This document shows positions 4,842 through 64,000 of a DNA stretch of 64,000 nt, one piece after another. Numbering within the stretch: the stretch's first letter is position 1; every line of letters starts with the position of its first letter. The notes under the pieces were generated by a model that was given only the letters and a program-made list of their open reading frames with translations, had not been told where the DNA came from and did not search any database. Source of the stretch: Bacillota bacterium (GTDB lineage Bacteria > Bacillota > SHA-98 > Ch115 > JABLXJ01); contig JABLXJ010000005.1 in the NCBI GenBank assembly GCA_013178125.1, positions 124,001-188,000 on the forward strand, written 5' to 3'. The translations under genes and the position numbers were made by a program.

Positions 4842-6677
4842 CTACACGCCCGCGGCCGACATCGTCTGCCTCTCGAAGGCTGCACGATGGGCACGACCCT
4901 CGCGCACGAGCCTTGCGGCATCAGGACCATAGGCAGTATGCAGGAGACGGTGGGCGAGTCCACTCCCCGGTTCCCCGAGGAACGTATCGTAAAGCCGCCG
5001 GACTTCGACGTTCTCATGGGACTTGCGGATGGCCTTGCACTCATCTTCCCGGTAGAGGACGGCCGCCCTCAGCTCACGCACCGCCGGGTCCAGGGAAATC
5101 GGCTGGCCGCCGCCGCATATGCAACCATTGGGACAGGCCATGATCTCCACAAAATGGTATTTATCAGGCGAATCTTGGGTTCCCGCGAGGAACCTCCCGG
5201 CGTTGCCCAGGCCATGCACCACGGCGACCCGGACCTGGGTGCCCGCCACATCGATGGTCGCATGCTTGACGCCATCAAACCCCCGGACCCCCTCAAACCT
5301 AACATCTCCAAGCGTCTTCCTGGTTACGATCTCGTATACGCTCCTGAGGGCCGCCTCCATGACGCCGCCCGTGACGCCGAAGATGGTCCCGGCGCCACTC
5401 GACATCCCGAGAGGTGAATCAAACTCGCCATCCTCGAGGTTCGCGAAGTCGATACCCGCCGCCTTGATCATCCGGGCGAGTTCACGTGTAGTGAGCACTG
5501 CGTCGACATCCTGGGTAAGAGCGCTCGAGGTCCTCATCTCGGGCCGCCCGGCTTCGTATTTCTTGGCCGTGCATGGCATTATCGAAACGCTGAACATCTT
5601 CGAGGGATCGATGCCTTTGACCTTCGCATAGTATGACTTTATAACCGCGCCCATCATCTGCTGGGGTGATTTACAGGTCGAGATATGATCGAGGAATTCC
5701 GGGTGGAATTGCTCACAGTACCTTATCCAGCCCGGGCTGCACGATGTGACAAGGGGAAGCACCCCGTGCCCGTTGAGCCTTTCGATGAATTCATGCCCTT
5801 CCTCCATGATCGTGAGGTCGGCAGCGAACTGTGTATCAAAAACCGCATCAAAGCCCAGCATATGAAGGGCCTGGGCGATCTTGCCCGTAACCGACGTCCC
5901 GGCCGGCATGCCGAACTCCTCACCGAGTGCGGCGCGGACCGCCGGCGCGACCTGCACCACCACGTGCTTCCCGGGATCATCCAGAGCATCCCACACGATC
6001 CCGGTATCATCCTTCTCGGTGATGGCCCCCACAGGGCACACGGTCGAGCACTGGCCACACGAGGTGCATTTCGCCTCGCCGAGGCCGTGTTCAAATGAGG
6101 GCGTAACCAGGGTCTTCCGTCCGCGGTAAGCAAAGGCGAGAGCCCCGACGCCCTGGATATCGCGGCACATTGTGACGCAGCGCCCGCACAGCACGCACTT
6201 ATCGGTATTGCGGACAATGGACGGGCTCGATGTATCGGGCTCGCGGTGTTCCTTATCACTGATATGATACCTGACCTTCCGGATGCCAAGGTCCCTTGCG
6301 AGCGCCTGCAGCTCGCACTTGCCGTTGCGCTCGCAGCTCAAGCAGTCCTGGGGGTGCCCGGCGATCAACAACTCGACTACCGTCTTGCGCGCGGCCCGGA
6401 CCGCCGCCGTATTGGTCCTGACCACCATTCCCTCGGCCACAGGGTACACACACGAAGCGACCAGGGTCCGCGCGCCCTCGACCTCGACGAGGCACACCCG
6501 GCACGCCCCCGAGGGGCCGATGACCGGATGATAACAAAGCGTGGGGATATTGATGCCGGCCCTGCGCGCGGCCTCGAGCACCGTGGCCCCCTGTTGGACC
6601 TCGACTTCGCGTCCATCTATAGTAAGCCTGACTGTAGTAGGTTTTGCACTGGCGTTTTTCGCATTCGCAGTCTCCAT
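4842..6677 (-). CDS. hndD: [FeFe] hydrogenase catalytic subunit
   Basis: 611 residues, catalytic H-cluster subunit of an NAD(P)-linked hydrogenase (HydA/HndD class). Domains in order: plant-type [2Fe-2S] (C48, C59, C62, C76), His-Cys3 cluster (HPQDCLSCERNGKC, from H108), two [4Fe-4S] clusters (C161-C171 and C204-C214), then the hydrogenase domain. H-cluster motifs are TSCSPGW (311-317), MPCTAKKYE (C369) and EIMACPNGCICGGG (C515, C519). TSCSPGW instead of TSCCPGW is the form I know from HndD-type subunits. Such complexes oxidise or make H2 with NADH and usually ferredoxin (electron bifurcation). The ATG at 6677 follows AGGAAGGAG. It lies between hndC and hndA; no C-terminal extra [2Fe-2S] domain is present. 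Confidence 0.96.
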   Translation of the reverse strand: METANAKNASAKPTTVRLTIDGREVEVQQGATVLEAARRAGINIPTLCYHPVIGPSGACRVCLVEVEGARTLVASCVYPVAEGMVVRTNTAAVRAARKTVVELLIAGHPQDCLSCERNGKCELQALARDLGIRKVRYHISDKEHREPDTSSPSIVRNTDKCVLCGRCVTMCRDIQGVGALAFAYRGRKTLVTPSFEHGLGEAKCTSCGQCSTVCPVGAITEKDDTGIVWDALDDPGKHVVVQVAPAVRAALGEEFGMPAGTSVTGKIAQALHMLGFDAVFDTQFAADLTIMEEGHEFIERLNGHGVLPLVTSCSPGWIRYCEQFHPEFLDHISTCKSPQQMMGAVIKSYYAKVKGIDPSKMFSVSIMPCTAKKYEAGRPEMRTSSALTQDVDAVLTTRELARMIKAAGIDFANLEDGEFDSPLGMSSGAGTIFGVTGGVMEAALRSVYEIVTRKTLGDVRFEGVRGFDGVKHATIDVAGTQVRVAVVHGLGNAGRFLAGTQDSPDKYHFVEIMACPNGCICGGGQPISLDPAVRELRAAVLYREDECKAIRKSHENVEVRRLYDTFLGEPGSGLAHRLLHTAYGPDAARLVREGRAHRAAFERQTMSAAGV

Positions 6678-59652: not shown

Positions 59653-60510
59653 CTAGAGCACCAGTGCTAGTATCCTTTCAAGATCCTCACTACTGTAGAA
59701 TTCGATTTCGATCTTTCCCTTCTTCTTTCCGGGAAGGATGCGCACCTGCGTCCCCAGGGCGTGTTTGAGCCTATCCTCGATATCCAGCAGATTTGGATCA
59801 ATACGCCTGACCCTTACCGGTGTTTCACGTGAAACATTACCTGGCCCCGCCCCGGATATGAGCCTCTTCACGAGCTCTTCTGTTTCTCGGACGGAGAGCT
59901 CCTCGCGGATTACCCTTTCACACACCGAACGCTGCAAGGCCTCATCCGCGAGCGCAAGCAGGGCACGAGCATGACCAACAGAAATTGTTTCACGTGAAAC
60001 ACTCTCTTGAATATCGGCAGGCAGGCTCAATAGCCGCAATGCATTAGCAATAACAGGCCGGCTACGTCCCAACATTGCGGCAAGCTGTTCCTGCGTAAAG
60101 GAAAACTCGACGATGAGCCGCCGGTAGGCCTCGGCCTCCTCTATTGGGTTCAGGTCCTGGCGCTGGAGGTTCTCCACCAGCGCTATCTGGATCATCGCCT
60201 TGTCGTCCAAATCGCGGAGGATCACAGGAACCTTCTTCAAACCAGCCTGCCTTGCCGCCCGCCACCTCCGCTCGCCGACAACAATCTGATACCCTTCTCC
60301 AACTCGCCTTACGATGAGGGGCTGCACAATCCCATGCAACCGAATAGACTCGCTCAGCTCGCGGAGCTTCTCCGGGTCGAAATCCCTCCGCGGTTGGTAA
60401 GGATTCGGGGCCAAGAGATCGATCCCGACCTCCACCACGCCCTCTTCGCCTTCCGGGTTAGCGTCAGGAATCAGCGCCCTTAACCCCTTCCCAAGTCCTC
60501 CCTTAGCCAC
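59653..60510 (-). CDS. parB: chromosome partitioning protein ParB/Spo0J
   Basis: 285 residues. MAKGGLGKGLRALIPDANP (the Arg-rich ParA-stimulating tail), CTP/ParB box ERRWRAARQAGLKKVPVI with VENLQRQDLNPIEEAEAYRR, the helix-turn-helix FTQEQLAAMLGRSRPVIANA that binds parS, and the C-terminal dimer domain (LGTQVRILPGKKKGKIEIEF). It contains two parS sites in its own sequence and follows parA by 4 bases. Confidence 0.96.
   Translation of the reverse strand: MAKGGLGKGLRALIPDANPEGEEGVVEVGIDLLAPNPYQPRRDFDPEKLRELSESIRLHGIVQPLIVRRVGEGYQIVVGERRWRAARQAGLKKVPVILRDLDDKAMIQIALVENLQRQDLNPIEEAEAYRRLIVEFSFTQEQLAAMLGRSRPVIANALRLLSLPADIQESVSRETISVGHARALLALADEALQRSVCERVIREELSVRETEELVKRLISGAGPGNVSRETPVRVRRIDPNLLDIEDRLKHALGTQVRILPGKKKGKIEIEFYSSEDLERILALVL
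59821..59836. promoter_or_regulatory. parS centromere site 1
   Basis: TGTTTCACGTGAAACA, the exact 16-base palindrome bound by Spo0J/ParB, inside parB (encoding VSRET). It is 150 bases from site 2. Confidence 0.95.
59986..60001. promoter_or_regulatory. parS centromere site 2
   Basis: A second perfect TGTTTCACGTGAAACA inside parB, again encoding VSRET. ParB loaded here would spread along this region and organise the origin. Confidence 0.95.
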
Positions 60511-60514
60511 CTAA

Positions 60515-61270
60515 TCAACCCTGCCCTTCCGCTTGCTGAAAATCGCCGTGCCCCTCGCCCGCGCCAGCCATCTCGACCGCAAGCGCCCTGTAAGCCTCTG
60601 CACCTTTCGATTTGTCATCATAGAGTATGATGGGCTTTCCATAGCTCGGCGCCTCACTCAATTTAACATTACGCGGTATCACCGTATTATAAACCTTCTC
60701 CTTGAAAAATTGCCTGACCTCCTCACTGACCTGCTGCGAAAGGTTCGTACGTGAATCGTACATCGTCAAAAGGACACCCTCGATATGAAGCCCGGGGTTG
60801 AGATGCTTCTGCACCAGGCTGACAGTATTCAAGAGCTGGCTCAACCCTTCAAGGGCATAGTACTCACACTGAATCGGAACCAGCACGCTGTCTGCGGCTG
60901 TCAGGGCATTCAGCGTCAGGAGGCCCAGGGATGGGGGACAGTCGATCAGAACGTAATCATATCGCCCACGAACCTCCTCCAGCGCCCTGCGGAGGCGAAC
61001 CTCCCTCGACATAACAGGGACGAGCTCAATCTCCGCCCCCGCGAGCCGTATGGTTGCAGGCACGAGATCGAGGCCGCCGACCTCGGTTTTCACGGTCAAA
61101 GCCGACACCGGGCGCTCGCTTATAATCGCATCATATATACAGGCTTTTATCTGACCCTTATCGACGCCCGCCCCGCTTGTAGCGTTCCCCTGCGGGTCTA
61201 CATCAACCAGGAGCACCCGCCGGCCCAGCACAGCCAGGCAGGCTCCAAGATTTACCGCTGTTGTACTCTT
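60515..61270 (-). CDS. parA: parA (soj), exon 2
   Basis: The second and main exon of ParA. From AAG at 61270 it reads KSTTAVNLGACLAVLGRRVL, LVDVDPQGNATSGAG and on to DYVLIDCPPSLGLLTLNALT, the deviant-Walker ATPase of chromosome segregation. Joined to exon 1 (63452-63496) it gives QKGGVG-KSTTAVNL, an intact Walker A, and a protein of 266 residues with normal length. The intron 61271-63451 sits between the Gly and the catalytic Lys. A simple ORF call from 61513 would wrongly start with translated intron and lack half of Walker A. Confidence 0.93.
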   Translation of the reverse strand, partial: KSTTAVNLGACLAVLGRRVLLVDVDPQGNATSGAGVDKGQIKACIYDAIISERPVSALTVKTEVGGLDLVPATIRLAGAEIELVPVMSREVRLRRALEEVRGRYDYVLIDCPPSLGLLTLNALTAADSVLVPIQCEYYALEGLSQLLNTVSLVQKHLNPGLHIEGVLLTMYDSRTNLSQQVSEEVRQFFKEKVYNTVIPRNVKLSEAPSYGKPIILYDDKSKGAEAYRALAVEMAGAGEGHGDFQQAEGQG

Positions 61271-61345
61271 GTAGAGTAGGCACAGAGCGCACAGCGTCAC
61301 CCGGCCCCATAGGCCGTGTGACCGTGTCTCCCCATGCCCCTCTCC

Positions 61346-61379
61346 GAACCGGACGTGCGCCTTTCGACGCATCCGGCTC
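61346..61379 (-). ncRNA. group II intron domain V
   Basis: 34 bases on the minus strand. GAGCCGGA pairs with TCCGGTTC (one G-T), TGCG pairs with CGCA, a two-base CG bulge and a GAAA loop in between. The AGC triad at the base is present. This is the catalytic core hairpin. Confidence 0.95.
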
Positions 61380-61442
61380 TCCGGAACTGCGCTCGCCTCT
61401 CCGCCGTCATCGATGATCTGCCCGCCTCTTGCCGTGCATGCG

Positions 61443-62786
61443 CTAGCACCCGGAGGACGCCCGGCGGTGAACCAGCCTATCAAGCAAGACAGGTCCCCTG
61501 TGCCCCTCCACAATTATACCTTGCCTCGAACAGGATCTCCTGAAAACAGTCCCTCTGGGGATTCCAGGGTGCCGCTTACACAGTAACGCGAATACCTTCC
61601 GGCGCGTCCAGCTATCAAGATAAGAAAACGTCCTCCTGCTGCTGGCAGCCCCGAAACAAACCCTCCACTCCTCGATAAGCTCATTGATCGCCGTGATAAC
61701 CTCACCCAGATCCTTGAGTGGAGAACCCTTCAGGCTGGTGAGCCTCCTGACCCGGGACTTGTAGTAGCTTATCGCCGACTTCCCGGGGTAGACCGTGAAT
61801 CCCACCCCGTTTCTCCCTCCCCGGCGCCTGAAGCAGAATCCGAGAAATTCCAACTCCGGCTCGCGGGGCACGATATCCAGCACAACCTTCTCCGGGCTCA
61901 GTCCAAGCTCGGATACTAGATATTCGCGAGCCTGGGTTACGACGGCCTCAAGCTCATCACGAGTTCCCGGGACCAGGAGCATGAGGAAACCACCATAATG
62001 AAACGACCGGGCAGGATAATACCGTGACATCTTCCCGAGCCACTCTTCGAATATGCTGAGGAGAATCCCAGCCAACAAGGCATGTAGACCCTCACCGGCC
62101 ACAGATACGGGGCTAGCAACACCCAGGCAATCACCCCGCCAGGCAGCTCCCCGGGTCTTTAGGACACCAGTCAGGACCTCAATAAATCTCCTATCCTTTA
62201 CACGTGACTTCAGCGCCCTAATCACTGACTTGCGCGCAGCACCTGATGCCCAGCCGCCGAGCCCCCCCTGGATGACCCACTCGCACGAGGCCCAGGGGCC
62301 GGCCTCAAAGCTCGCTCTGATCTCCTTCGCAATATTCCGCACCCTCCAGGCCCTCCGCAATCTCCCGGGCATATCCCACAACTCCGGGGGCCCAGCCCAT
62401 AACACCGGGGACCTGGCCGCAGCGCCCGCATATAAAGGCTCGAGCACCATGCAGAGGGCTTCTTCCAGGACGCACCAGTGAATATCATCGAAACCCCATT
62501 CCAGCGCACCACTGCCGGTGCCACCCACGGGGTCCTCTTCCTCGCGCGCCCTAGCCACGGCGGCCAGAACCCGCCCAACAACCCCATCCACATATCTCAA
62601 ACCCGGCCCATCCCCGAGAACGGCCCGGGCCGCCCGCTCAATCCAGGGCCGCCATTTCAATATTCCGTAAAGATCGGTAAACCTCTCCCCCTCCGGCATA
62701 CAAAGAGACGCACGGTAGAGACTCCTCTGCTTTCGAGTTACGGGGTCATCCACCTCAACGGTGACACCTCTTGCCGATGCATGCAC
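61443..62786 (-). CDS. group II intron maturase with degenerate reverse transcriptase
   Basis: 447 residues. The order of RT domains can still be followed: RYVDGVVGRV (motif 0), LEEALCMVLEPLYAG (RT2), then IQGGLGGWASG where the catalytic 'DI.GFFD' should be, GVASPVSVAGEGLHALLAGI instead of 'G.PQG...SPLLANI', and HYGGFLML (264-267) instead of YADD. All three catalytic Asp are gone. ELEFLGFCFRRRGGRNGVGF and the thumb/X domain LDSWTRRKVFALLCKRHPGI are preserved; no HNH endonuclease follows. The frame is open, which argues it is kept for splicing. It is the maturase of the parA intron. Confidence 0.9.
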   Translation of the reverse strand: MHASARGVTVEVDDPVTRKQRSLYRASLCMPEGERFTDLYGILKWRPWIERAARAVLGDGPGLRYVDGVVGRVLAAVARAREEEDPVGGTGSGALEWGFDDIHWCVLEEALCMVLEPLYAGAAARSPVLWAGPPELWDMPGRLRRAWRVRNIAKEIRASFEAGPWASCEWVIQGGLGGWASGAARKSVIRALKSRVKDRRFIEVLTGVLKTRGAAWRGDCLGVASPVSVAGEGLHALLAGILLSIFEEWLGKMSRYYPARSFHYGGFLMLLVPGTRDELEAVVTQAREYLVSELGLSPEKVVLDIVPREPELEFLGFCFRRRGGRNGVGFTVYPGKSAISYYKSRVRRLTSLKGSPLKDLGEVITAINELIEEWRVCFGAASSRRTFSYLDSWTRRKVFALLCKRHPGIPRGTVFRRSCSRQGIIVEGHRGPVLLDRLVHRRASSGC

Positions 62787-63451
62787 GGCTCAACGTCCCT
62801 CTACTTCCATGGAGTTTTCGCAGTTCCTGGGGTCCTTCGCCATGTGCCCCGCTTTCCAGGGCTCCGACTACTACGACCCCTCCGCCCCCACCTGGTGACC
62901 CTGTCACCACTATTCCCAGCGAGCCCATCCACGATGATATCGCCCGGCCGGGCTTCCATCAGGTCTCCCAGGCAGGTTCCCAGGTTCCATGCAGGACCCC
63001 TTCACACCAGACCTTAGGCCGCCCCTATGCCCATGCCGCCACAGGGAAACGGGCCCATCGTCCAACCTGTCCATCGTCCATATCCCCACCCCGGAGCTCC
63101 GCAGGCACGTAGGCCAAGCCCGCGCAGCTAACGGCGGCTCACCCGCATTCACACGCCTCACGTGGCTCTTCATGCCCCGGGAGGACAAATGCGAAATGCG
63201 GGGCAAGGCGCTAAATGGGCTTTACACGGGGCTTCCTCGCGTAGCCATAGCCTGGATTCAGGCTCGCCCTCAGCTCACCATCCTGCCACCGGGATCGTGA
63301 GGTTCAGGCTTGTTCGATGGGCTCCGGAACGGGGCTCCTCTCGGAAACCCGCCCCGCCATCTCAGCCTTACCGGCGGAAACTCGCAACCCGCCGAAACCC
63401 GCCGGCATCCGGAATCCTACCGGCATGGCCCTACATAGCTTCCTGGCGCAC

Positions 63452-63496
63452 GCCCACGCCGCCTTTTTGATTGACAATGGCAATAACCTTGCTCAT
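63452..63496 (-). CDS. parA: parA (soj), exon 1
   Basis: 15 codons, MSKVIAIVNQKGGVG, ending in GTG GGC immediately before the intron 5' end. This is the ParA N-terminus up to the second Gly of Walker A. The ATG is 10 bases after the noc stop and follows AAGG by 6 bases. It is below normal gene-finder size and would be missed. Confidence 0.92.
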
Positions 63497-63506
63497 CCGT
63501 TACCTT

Positions 63507-64000
63507 TTAACTCCCTTCCTTTGACTCAGTCTTCTGCGGCTCCGCCTCAGATCCCGCAGCTATCCTCGCCTTTACCCTCGCACCCGCCTCATGCGCAACC
63601 TGTGCCGCCATGGTGCTCAGGCTCTTCTTCGAGATGCGGATGCGCACCTCGAACCAGTCTTCGCGATCATCCTCGTCAACGGACACCCGGATACCTGTCG
63701 CCCTCAACTGCCTTACAACATCGCGAATTGAATTGAGGAATAGCCGGATATCCTTAAAAGCCCTGACGACCACCCGCCCCTCCGGCGAGCCCTGCCGCCT
63801 GCCACTGGTTTTGAGCCTCTCCAACCTCCTTTCGATCAAGCGCTCCGTCTCGGCGACAGTCAAGTTATCCTTCAATACCCTATCCAGCATCTCCAGCTGG
63901 TCCTTCTCGCTGTCAAGCTTGAGAAGGGCGCGGGCGTGGCGTTCCGTGATTATTTCCCGGGAAATACTCTCAATCACCCTGGGCGGGAGCTTCAAGAGCC
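63507..64000 (-). CDS. noc: Noc/ParB-family protein, 3' part (runs off the right edge)
   Basis: The last 163 or so codons of a ParB-like protein: KLPPRVIESISREIITERHA, RALLKLDSEKDQLEMLDRVL, TVAETERLIERRLERL, then a C-terminal domain with low similarity to ParB. The order noc-parA-parB is that of Bacillus, where Noc prevents division over the nucleoid. The 5' part with the helix-turn-helix lies beyond the window. It is immediately upstream of parA exon 1. Confidence 0.88.
   Translation of the reverse strand, partial: LLKLPPRVIESISREIITERHARALLKLDSEKDQLEMLDRVLKDNLTVAETERLIERRLERLKTSGRRQGSPEGRVVVRAFKDIRLFLNSIRDVVRQLRATGIRVSVDEDDREDWFEVRIRISKKSLSTMAAQVAHEAGARVKARIAAGSEAEPQKTESKEGS

Follow-up and report, generated by a model that had tools for sequence, protein, structure and literature searches.

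On the minus strand of the 64-kb window (the whole stretch of DNA that was analyzed) lies the chromosomal parA (soj) gene, which encodes a ParA ATPase with a deviant Walker A motif, adjoins parB, and is interrupted by a group II intron (Table 1). Direct reading of the letters and their translation places the intron such that the Walker A motif is cut between GGVG and KSTT. The joined exons are in phase and yield a 266-residue ParA that aligns without gaps, at 73-74% identity, with the unsplit ParA proteins of the order-mates G002 and G003, and the junction reads KGGV[GA]K in all 28 unsplit relatives among those listed; unspliced read-through from exon 1, by contrast, meets a stop after six intron codons. 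The ParB-family gene upstream of parA has a complete counterpart (L054 548-1654) in G001, the only same-genus genome compared. These observations, together with the RNA features described below, bear out the sequence-only reading of this locus, which had placed a group II intron with exact ends and a domain V inside the Walker A motif of parA, had joined the exons in phase, and had proposed the comparison with intronless parA genes that G002 and G003 now provide; its coordinates were right, the range it gave (61271-63496) comprising the intron plus exon 1.

Table 1. Features of the split parA locus (positions in the window).
Feature	Position	Strand	Remarks
ParB-family gene (Noc-like), upstream	63507..63998	-	HTH_ParB; runs off window
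parA exon 1	63452..63496	-	encodes MSKVIAIVNQKGGVG; gene start 63496
IBS1	63452..63457	-	GTGGGC, last 6 nt of exon 1
Group II intron, 2181 nt	61271..63451	-	5' GTGCGCC ... CTACTCTAC 3'; RF00029
EBS1	63109..63114	-	GCCTAC, intron positions 338-343
Intron-encoded protein (IEP), 447 aa, RT-derived	61443..62786	-	open ORF; start codon not certain
Former RT motif YADD, residues 264-267	61986..61997	-	now YGGF (HYGGF); alignments with active RTs
Maturase domain X (GIIM, PF08388), residues 343-417	61536..61760	-	Pfam 33.4 bits, cut-off 23
Domain V, 34 nt	61346..61379	-	GAGCCGG...CCGGTTC, GAAA loop, internal bulge, catalytic triad
Domain VI, extended hairpin	61273..61343	-	fold
Predicted branch-point A	61277	-	single bulged A, 7 nt from 3' splice site
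parA exon 2	60515..61270	-	begins KSTTAVNL; AAA_31 E 3e-60
parB (spo0J), downstream	59653..60510	-	ParB_N, HTH_ParB, ParB_C

A covariance-model search, likewise suggested by the sequence-only reading, returned RF00029 at the 3' end of the intron (61271-61381; 63.8 bits, with E 3.2e-10 for the window and a gathering score of 40); nothing else in the 64 kb matched an Rfam model. The intron termini, GTGCGCC and CTAC, fit the 5' GUGYG and 3' AY ends and are kept in G001; domain V shows no broken pair in the Rfam alignment, domains V-VI fold with z = -5.2 relative to shuffles, and the bulged A is present in both the MFE and centroid structures, at the position where a branch point is expected. At the 5' exon, EBS1 pairs with IBS1 at six of six positions in both the window (with one G-U) and G001, and the third-position change between the two exons (GTGGGC in the window, GTAGGC in G001) leaves this pairing complete. 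The same GCCTAC EBS1 occupies the corresponding alignment position in G001 and in five ORF-less parA introns discussed below. No EBS2-IBS2 pairing is claimed: the window has a GCCGCC upstream of EBS1, which G001 does not share.

The congener G001 carries the same intron at the same bond with an equally RT-dead IEP, and its comparison with the window's genome (G000), both of them drafts, provides a measure of selection on each part of the locus. Exon 2 is 94% identical between the two; dN/dS is 0.041 across both parA exons and 0.043 for exon 2 alone (dS about 0.7), exon 1 shows dN = 0 at dS = 0.82, and parB gives 0.055. Within the intron, ribozyme segments are 80-96% identical, mostly 90-96%, with domains I-III at ~90-96% in blocks, whereas identity is 67% across most of the ORF region and falls to roughly 53% where exon sites are synonymous (pS 0.467). 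Since both exons, 2 kb apart, are under strong purifying selection they must be joined, and from this selection and the anatomy of the intron we infer splicing in the cell. The G000 assembly (3.48 Mb, 54-contig draft, 98.4% complete, 2% contamination) holds no second parA ortholog: the best other full-length-scale matches reach 23-32% identity, and the remaining matches are weak, or short P-loop matches. The earlier claim that ParA depends on splicing, against which an intact second parA would have spoken, thus gains support both from the single parA ortholog in a 98.4%-complete assembly and from the constraint on the exons.

The IEP is single-copy in its genome and is the only GIIM protein in G000, as is its counterpart in G001. 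Its Pfam profile comprises the GIIM maturase domain and no RVT_1 or other RT match; residues 105-425 align with active group II RTs (hhalign, probability 98.2%, E 4e-14), and identity to annotated LtrA proteins is 22-25% (tblastn). At the YADD position G001 reads YGGS, and in the alignment all three RT catalytic Asp residues (both of YADD and that of motif A) are absent from the window and G001 proteins alike; with these residues gone, RT activity must, judging by the alignment, have been lost. No stop interrupts the reading frame in either species (dS about 1), and its dN/dS of 0.244 is lowest in domain X (about 0.14-0.17) and the N-terminus. An open frame in both species at such a ratio suggests that the IEP has been kept, and an economical reading is that it would serve as a maturase retained for splicing. 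A related-locus search of genome contigs with the IEP as query found no relatives, and AlphaFold2 modeling from a two-row alignment gave a pLDDT of 41 and no usable model.

Introns of at least two other kinds occupy the same base of parA in 27 or more additional genomes of Bacillota and Chloroflexota. A degenerate pattern (QKGGVG followed by GTGYG) searched across about 85,000 genomes yielded 49 stretches, 28 of which, including the G001 contig, present parA exon 1 and then an intron start; exon 2 was located in all 28, for seven of them after the locus was fetched anew, and the other loci (about 20) are chance matches devoid of parA exons. The carriers include Thermoactinomycetaceae, Heliorestis, Clostridium, Ktedonobacteria and Clostridia MAGs, and none of the 27 carrier genomes besides G001 has an unsplit parA ortholog, a few having paralogs of at most 44% identity. 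Among 61 relatives, a ParA match starting at residue 14-16 is found only in G000, G001 and G022, the last from another family and with a 507-nt group II intron, devoid of an ORF, at the identical parA bond; the same search gave no ParA match for G016 and G034. In Thermoactinomycetaceae the match starts at residue 12-16 in 14 of 23 genomes and at residue 1-2 in the other nine. Viral contigs gave one pattern match, a chance one with in-frame stops, phages one 44-nt match confined to the domain V region, and plasmids just distant LtrA proteins with less than 26% identity among the matches listed.

The introns at this site are of three kinds: a group that we call family A, an ORF-less kind, and the window and G001 pair. 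Family A comprises 22 introns of 1.7-2.6 kb with 5' GTGCGTCC or GTGCGCCC and a TACCCTAC-like 3' end. Their IEPs are of the Intron_maturas2 type and nearly all retain the FRYYHYxSLLKT block of domain X, whereas YADD is kept in four and missing in 18. The four YADD-bearing introns (L069, L080, L093 and L142; three from Ktedonobacteria, one from Shimazuella) are candidates for a still-mobile ancestor state. Family A EBS1 covaries with the third positions of the Val and Gly codons that form IBS1: six-mers picked by eye from the alignment and then checked by script pair at six of six positions in 17 of the 22 introns, vs. 4.3 expected, and none of 20,000 shuffles did as well. Parsimony needs at least three live/dead changes, so that RT loss in family A was probably repeated, as judged on a weak tree. 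The ORF-less kind consists of five introns of 507-527 nt (L075, L089, L101, L103 and L104), whose host genomes encode RT-less maturases elsewhere.

In the ParA tree, which like the others was built quickly and carries SH-aLRT support only, the ORF-less carriers fall into one supported clade and the window pair into another, apart from it. In light of these separate clades, it is simplest to assume that introns reached this bond at least three times, while an ancient presence of introns at the site with later losses may also explain the distribution. A single lineage comprising the window and family A introns was considered and rejected, given their separate places in the ParA tree and their different maturase domains (GIIM in the window, Intron_maturas2 in family A). 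Similar ends and the shared EBS1, in turn, suggest that the window intron is related to the ORF-less kind, with blastn similarity between them limited to short conserved segments. For Clostridium algidicarnis and C. simiarum (L062, L099), the branch leading to the split ParA is very long in the ParA tree, and these proteins may therefore be divergent or different ParA proteins.

Additional group II introns were met in these genomes. The recA gene of G022, a DTU065 MAG, is apparently split by four of them (L196, G022:C31:12500-19000; RecA pieces at 742-1053, 1798-1935, 2405-2890 and 4945-5451), with four domain V matches within about 3.4 kb and one intron encoding an RT-less GIIM protein of 313 residues; the related G068, G077, G086 and G087 feature two to four clustered domain V matches and a GIIM protein of 308-324 residues. 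A ribonucleotide reductase gene of G022, class II-like and named from its sequence, is likewise split (L197 minus strand 1129-2380, G022:C35) by an intron encoding a 264-residue RT-less Intron_maturas2 protein, with similar proteins of 262-294 residues in G077, G086 and G087. The window's own genome holds a second, ORF-less group II intron near a tRNA gene (L056 about 1816-2372 minus, G000:C6) that shares 84% identity with the window intron across 68 nt; no conserved gene was recognized as its host, and it might use the parA IEP in trans. Finally, in the order-mate G003 a complete group II intron whose RT is intact and bears YADD lies directly upstream of a transposase-like ORF (L057 1421-3004 and 3032-4279), a usual mobile setting.

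We consider it highly probable that a homed group II intron has become an immobile, splicing-only element of parA. The exact site, intact catalytic core, EBS1-IBS1 pairing and single parA are legible in the DNA itself, as are the loss of the RT active site, the intact ORF, the persistence of the intron in two species and the recurrence of introns at the site, and from these we infer splicing in the cell, the maturase role and immobility. In an ancestor of the genus, the intron would have homed into the P-loop codons of parA, whose conservation makes them usable as a homing target, and would then have been converted to its present state. Conserved nucleotide-binding motifs are also the homing targets of inteins, which settle in P-loops; both are selfish elements in such motifs, inteins splicing at the protein and the parA introns at the RNA level. 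EBS1 would bind the end of exon 1 and the intron would excise itself, probably as a lariat via the bulged A, thus restoring the Walker A motif, with the IEP, an RT remnant with domain X, as the maturase aiding splicing in the cell. ParA production would then depend on the intron, which could be lost by exact removal only. An intron in an indispensable stretch can leave only exactly, so that selection keeps splicing and not mobility, and selection on splicing alone predicts RT loss with maturase retention, as observed. The parA site would further be a hot spot, where at least two other kinds, mostly decayed likewise, have reached the identical phosphodiester bond in other lineages.

Conserved sites do attract homing group II introns, and the four YADD-bearing family A introns may be mobile, yet it is very improbable that the window intron is an ordinary, still mobile retroelement caught soon after homing into parA: its IEP lacks the three catalytic Asp residues and is single-copy, the sole other domain V match in G000 belongs to a different, ORF-less intron, and the parA intron also occurs in the congener, at a dS of about 0.7. 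Some bacteria can do without Soj, and parA might accordingly be broken, with no splicing, in the window species and G001; the low dN/dS across the exons, an exon 1 free of nonsynonymous change, the EBS1-IBS1 covariation and the conservation of the ribozyme make this hardly credible. We give as little weight to an unspliced ParA whose translation would begin in the last part of the intron, in the exon 2 frame, and which would lack KGGVG. In the window the 81 codons before exon 2 are indeed open in this frame, and both species have a GTG 10 codons ahead of exon 2, but the product would be devoid of half of the Walker A loop, exon 1 is conserved, and in most of the 29 introns the open stretch before exon 2 contains no start codon.

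Two further alternatives concern what the IEP and the intron do. The intron may splice alone or via a host factor, with the RT-dead IEP a slowly decaying relic, as its dN/dS of 0.24 is relaxed compared with host genes (about 0.05) and five relatives carry ORF-less introns at the same site. We regard this as unlikely, though deserving of attention, for both species, at dS about 1, have kept the ORF open, constraint is strongest precisely in domain X and the N-terminus, and either genome has no other GIIM protein. At least three arrivals at one bond and long retention without mobility could also point to a selected regulatory switch, with ParA levels set by temperature, Mg2+ or growth stage; this we find doubtful, since a conserved homing target and the difficulty of exact loss explain the pattern and intron-free relatives are common, as in nine of the 23 Thermoactinomycetaceae. 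Equally speculative is the idea that independent lineages keep RT-dead maturases because maturase-dependent splicing tunes the ParA level and thus segregation or sporulation. The sequence-only reading placed chromosome segregation under control of the ribozyme; what the sequences support is dependence of ParA on splicing, which is not regulation. That reading had overlooked the dead RT with its retained maturase domain, the intron's presence in the congener, and the introns that occupy this nucleotide in about 30 further genomes.

Most bacterial group II introns lie outside housekeeping genes, and RT-degenerate IEPs are rare in bacteria, with O.i.I2 in radC of Oceanobacillus iheyensis as the only known example in a 2015 review (PMC4424553). 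Like the window intron, O.i.I2 resides in a chromosomal gene and its IEP is devoid of YADD; other RT motifs are also lost, there are no stop codons, and the protein is presumed to act as a maturase only (PMC4424553). It differs in belonging to the ML class and in being one isolated case, in another gene, whereas the parA site has been hit recurrently and the parA intron is retained across two species with dN/dS support for both exons and IEP. MatK of the chloroplast trnK intron has similarly lost RT motifs while keeping domain X, and is splicing-only in an essential gene (PMC4424553), but it is organellar, of class IIA, and binds several introns, in contrast to a bacterial intron with its own IEP. 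As summarized in that review, the recA intron of Geobacillus kaustophilus also makes a core gene dependent on splicing, in a different host gene (Chee and Takami 2005, in PMC4424553). C.te.I1 of Clostridium tetani is an ORF-less bacterial intron comparable to the 507-527-nt parA introns; its genome is said to have no IEP-related gene (PMC4424553), whereas genomes with ORF-less parA introns do encode RT-less maturases at other loci. We found no reports of group II introns in parA in the literature searched, with subscription journals mostly outside it. The parA set is one of RT-degenerate introns of the O.i.I2 type, gathered at a single position and far more numerous.

Loss of mobility with retention of splicing is the presumed route from bacterial group II introns to those of organelles and the spliceosome. 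A single parA site displays this transition repeatedly and at several stages, from introns with a YADD-bearing RT (four), through those with an RT-dead IEP that retains its maturase domain (18 of the 22 in family A plus the window pair), to ORF-less introns whose host genomes carry RT-less maturases at other loci. As several of the carriers are cultured isolates, among them Laceyella sacchari, Paludifilum halophilum and Shimazuella soli, maturase dependence, loss of mobility and any consequences for ParA dosage are directly testable.
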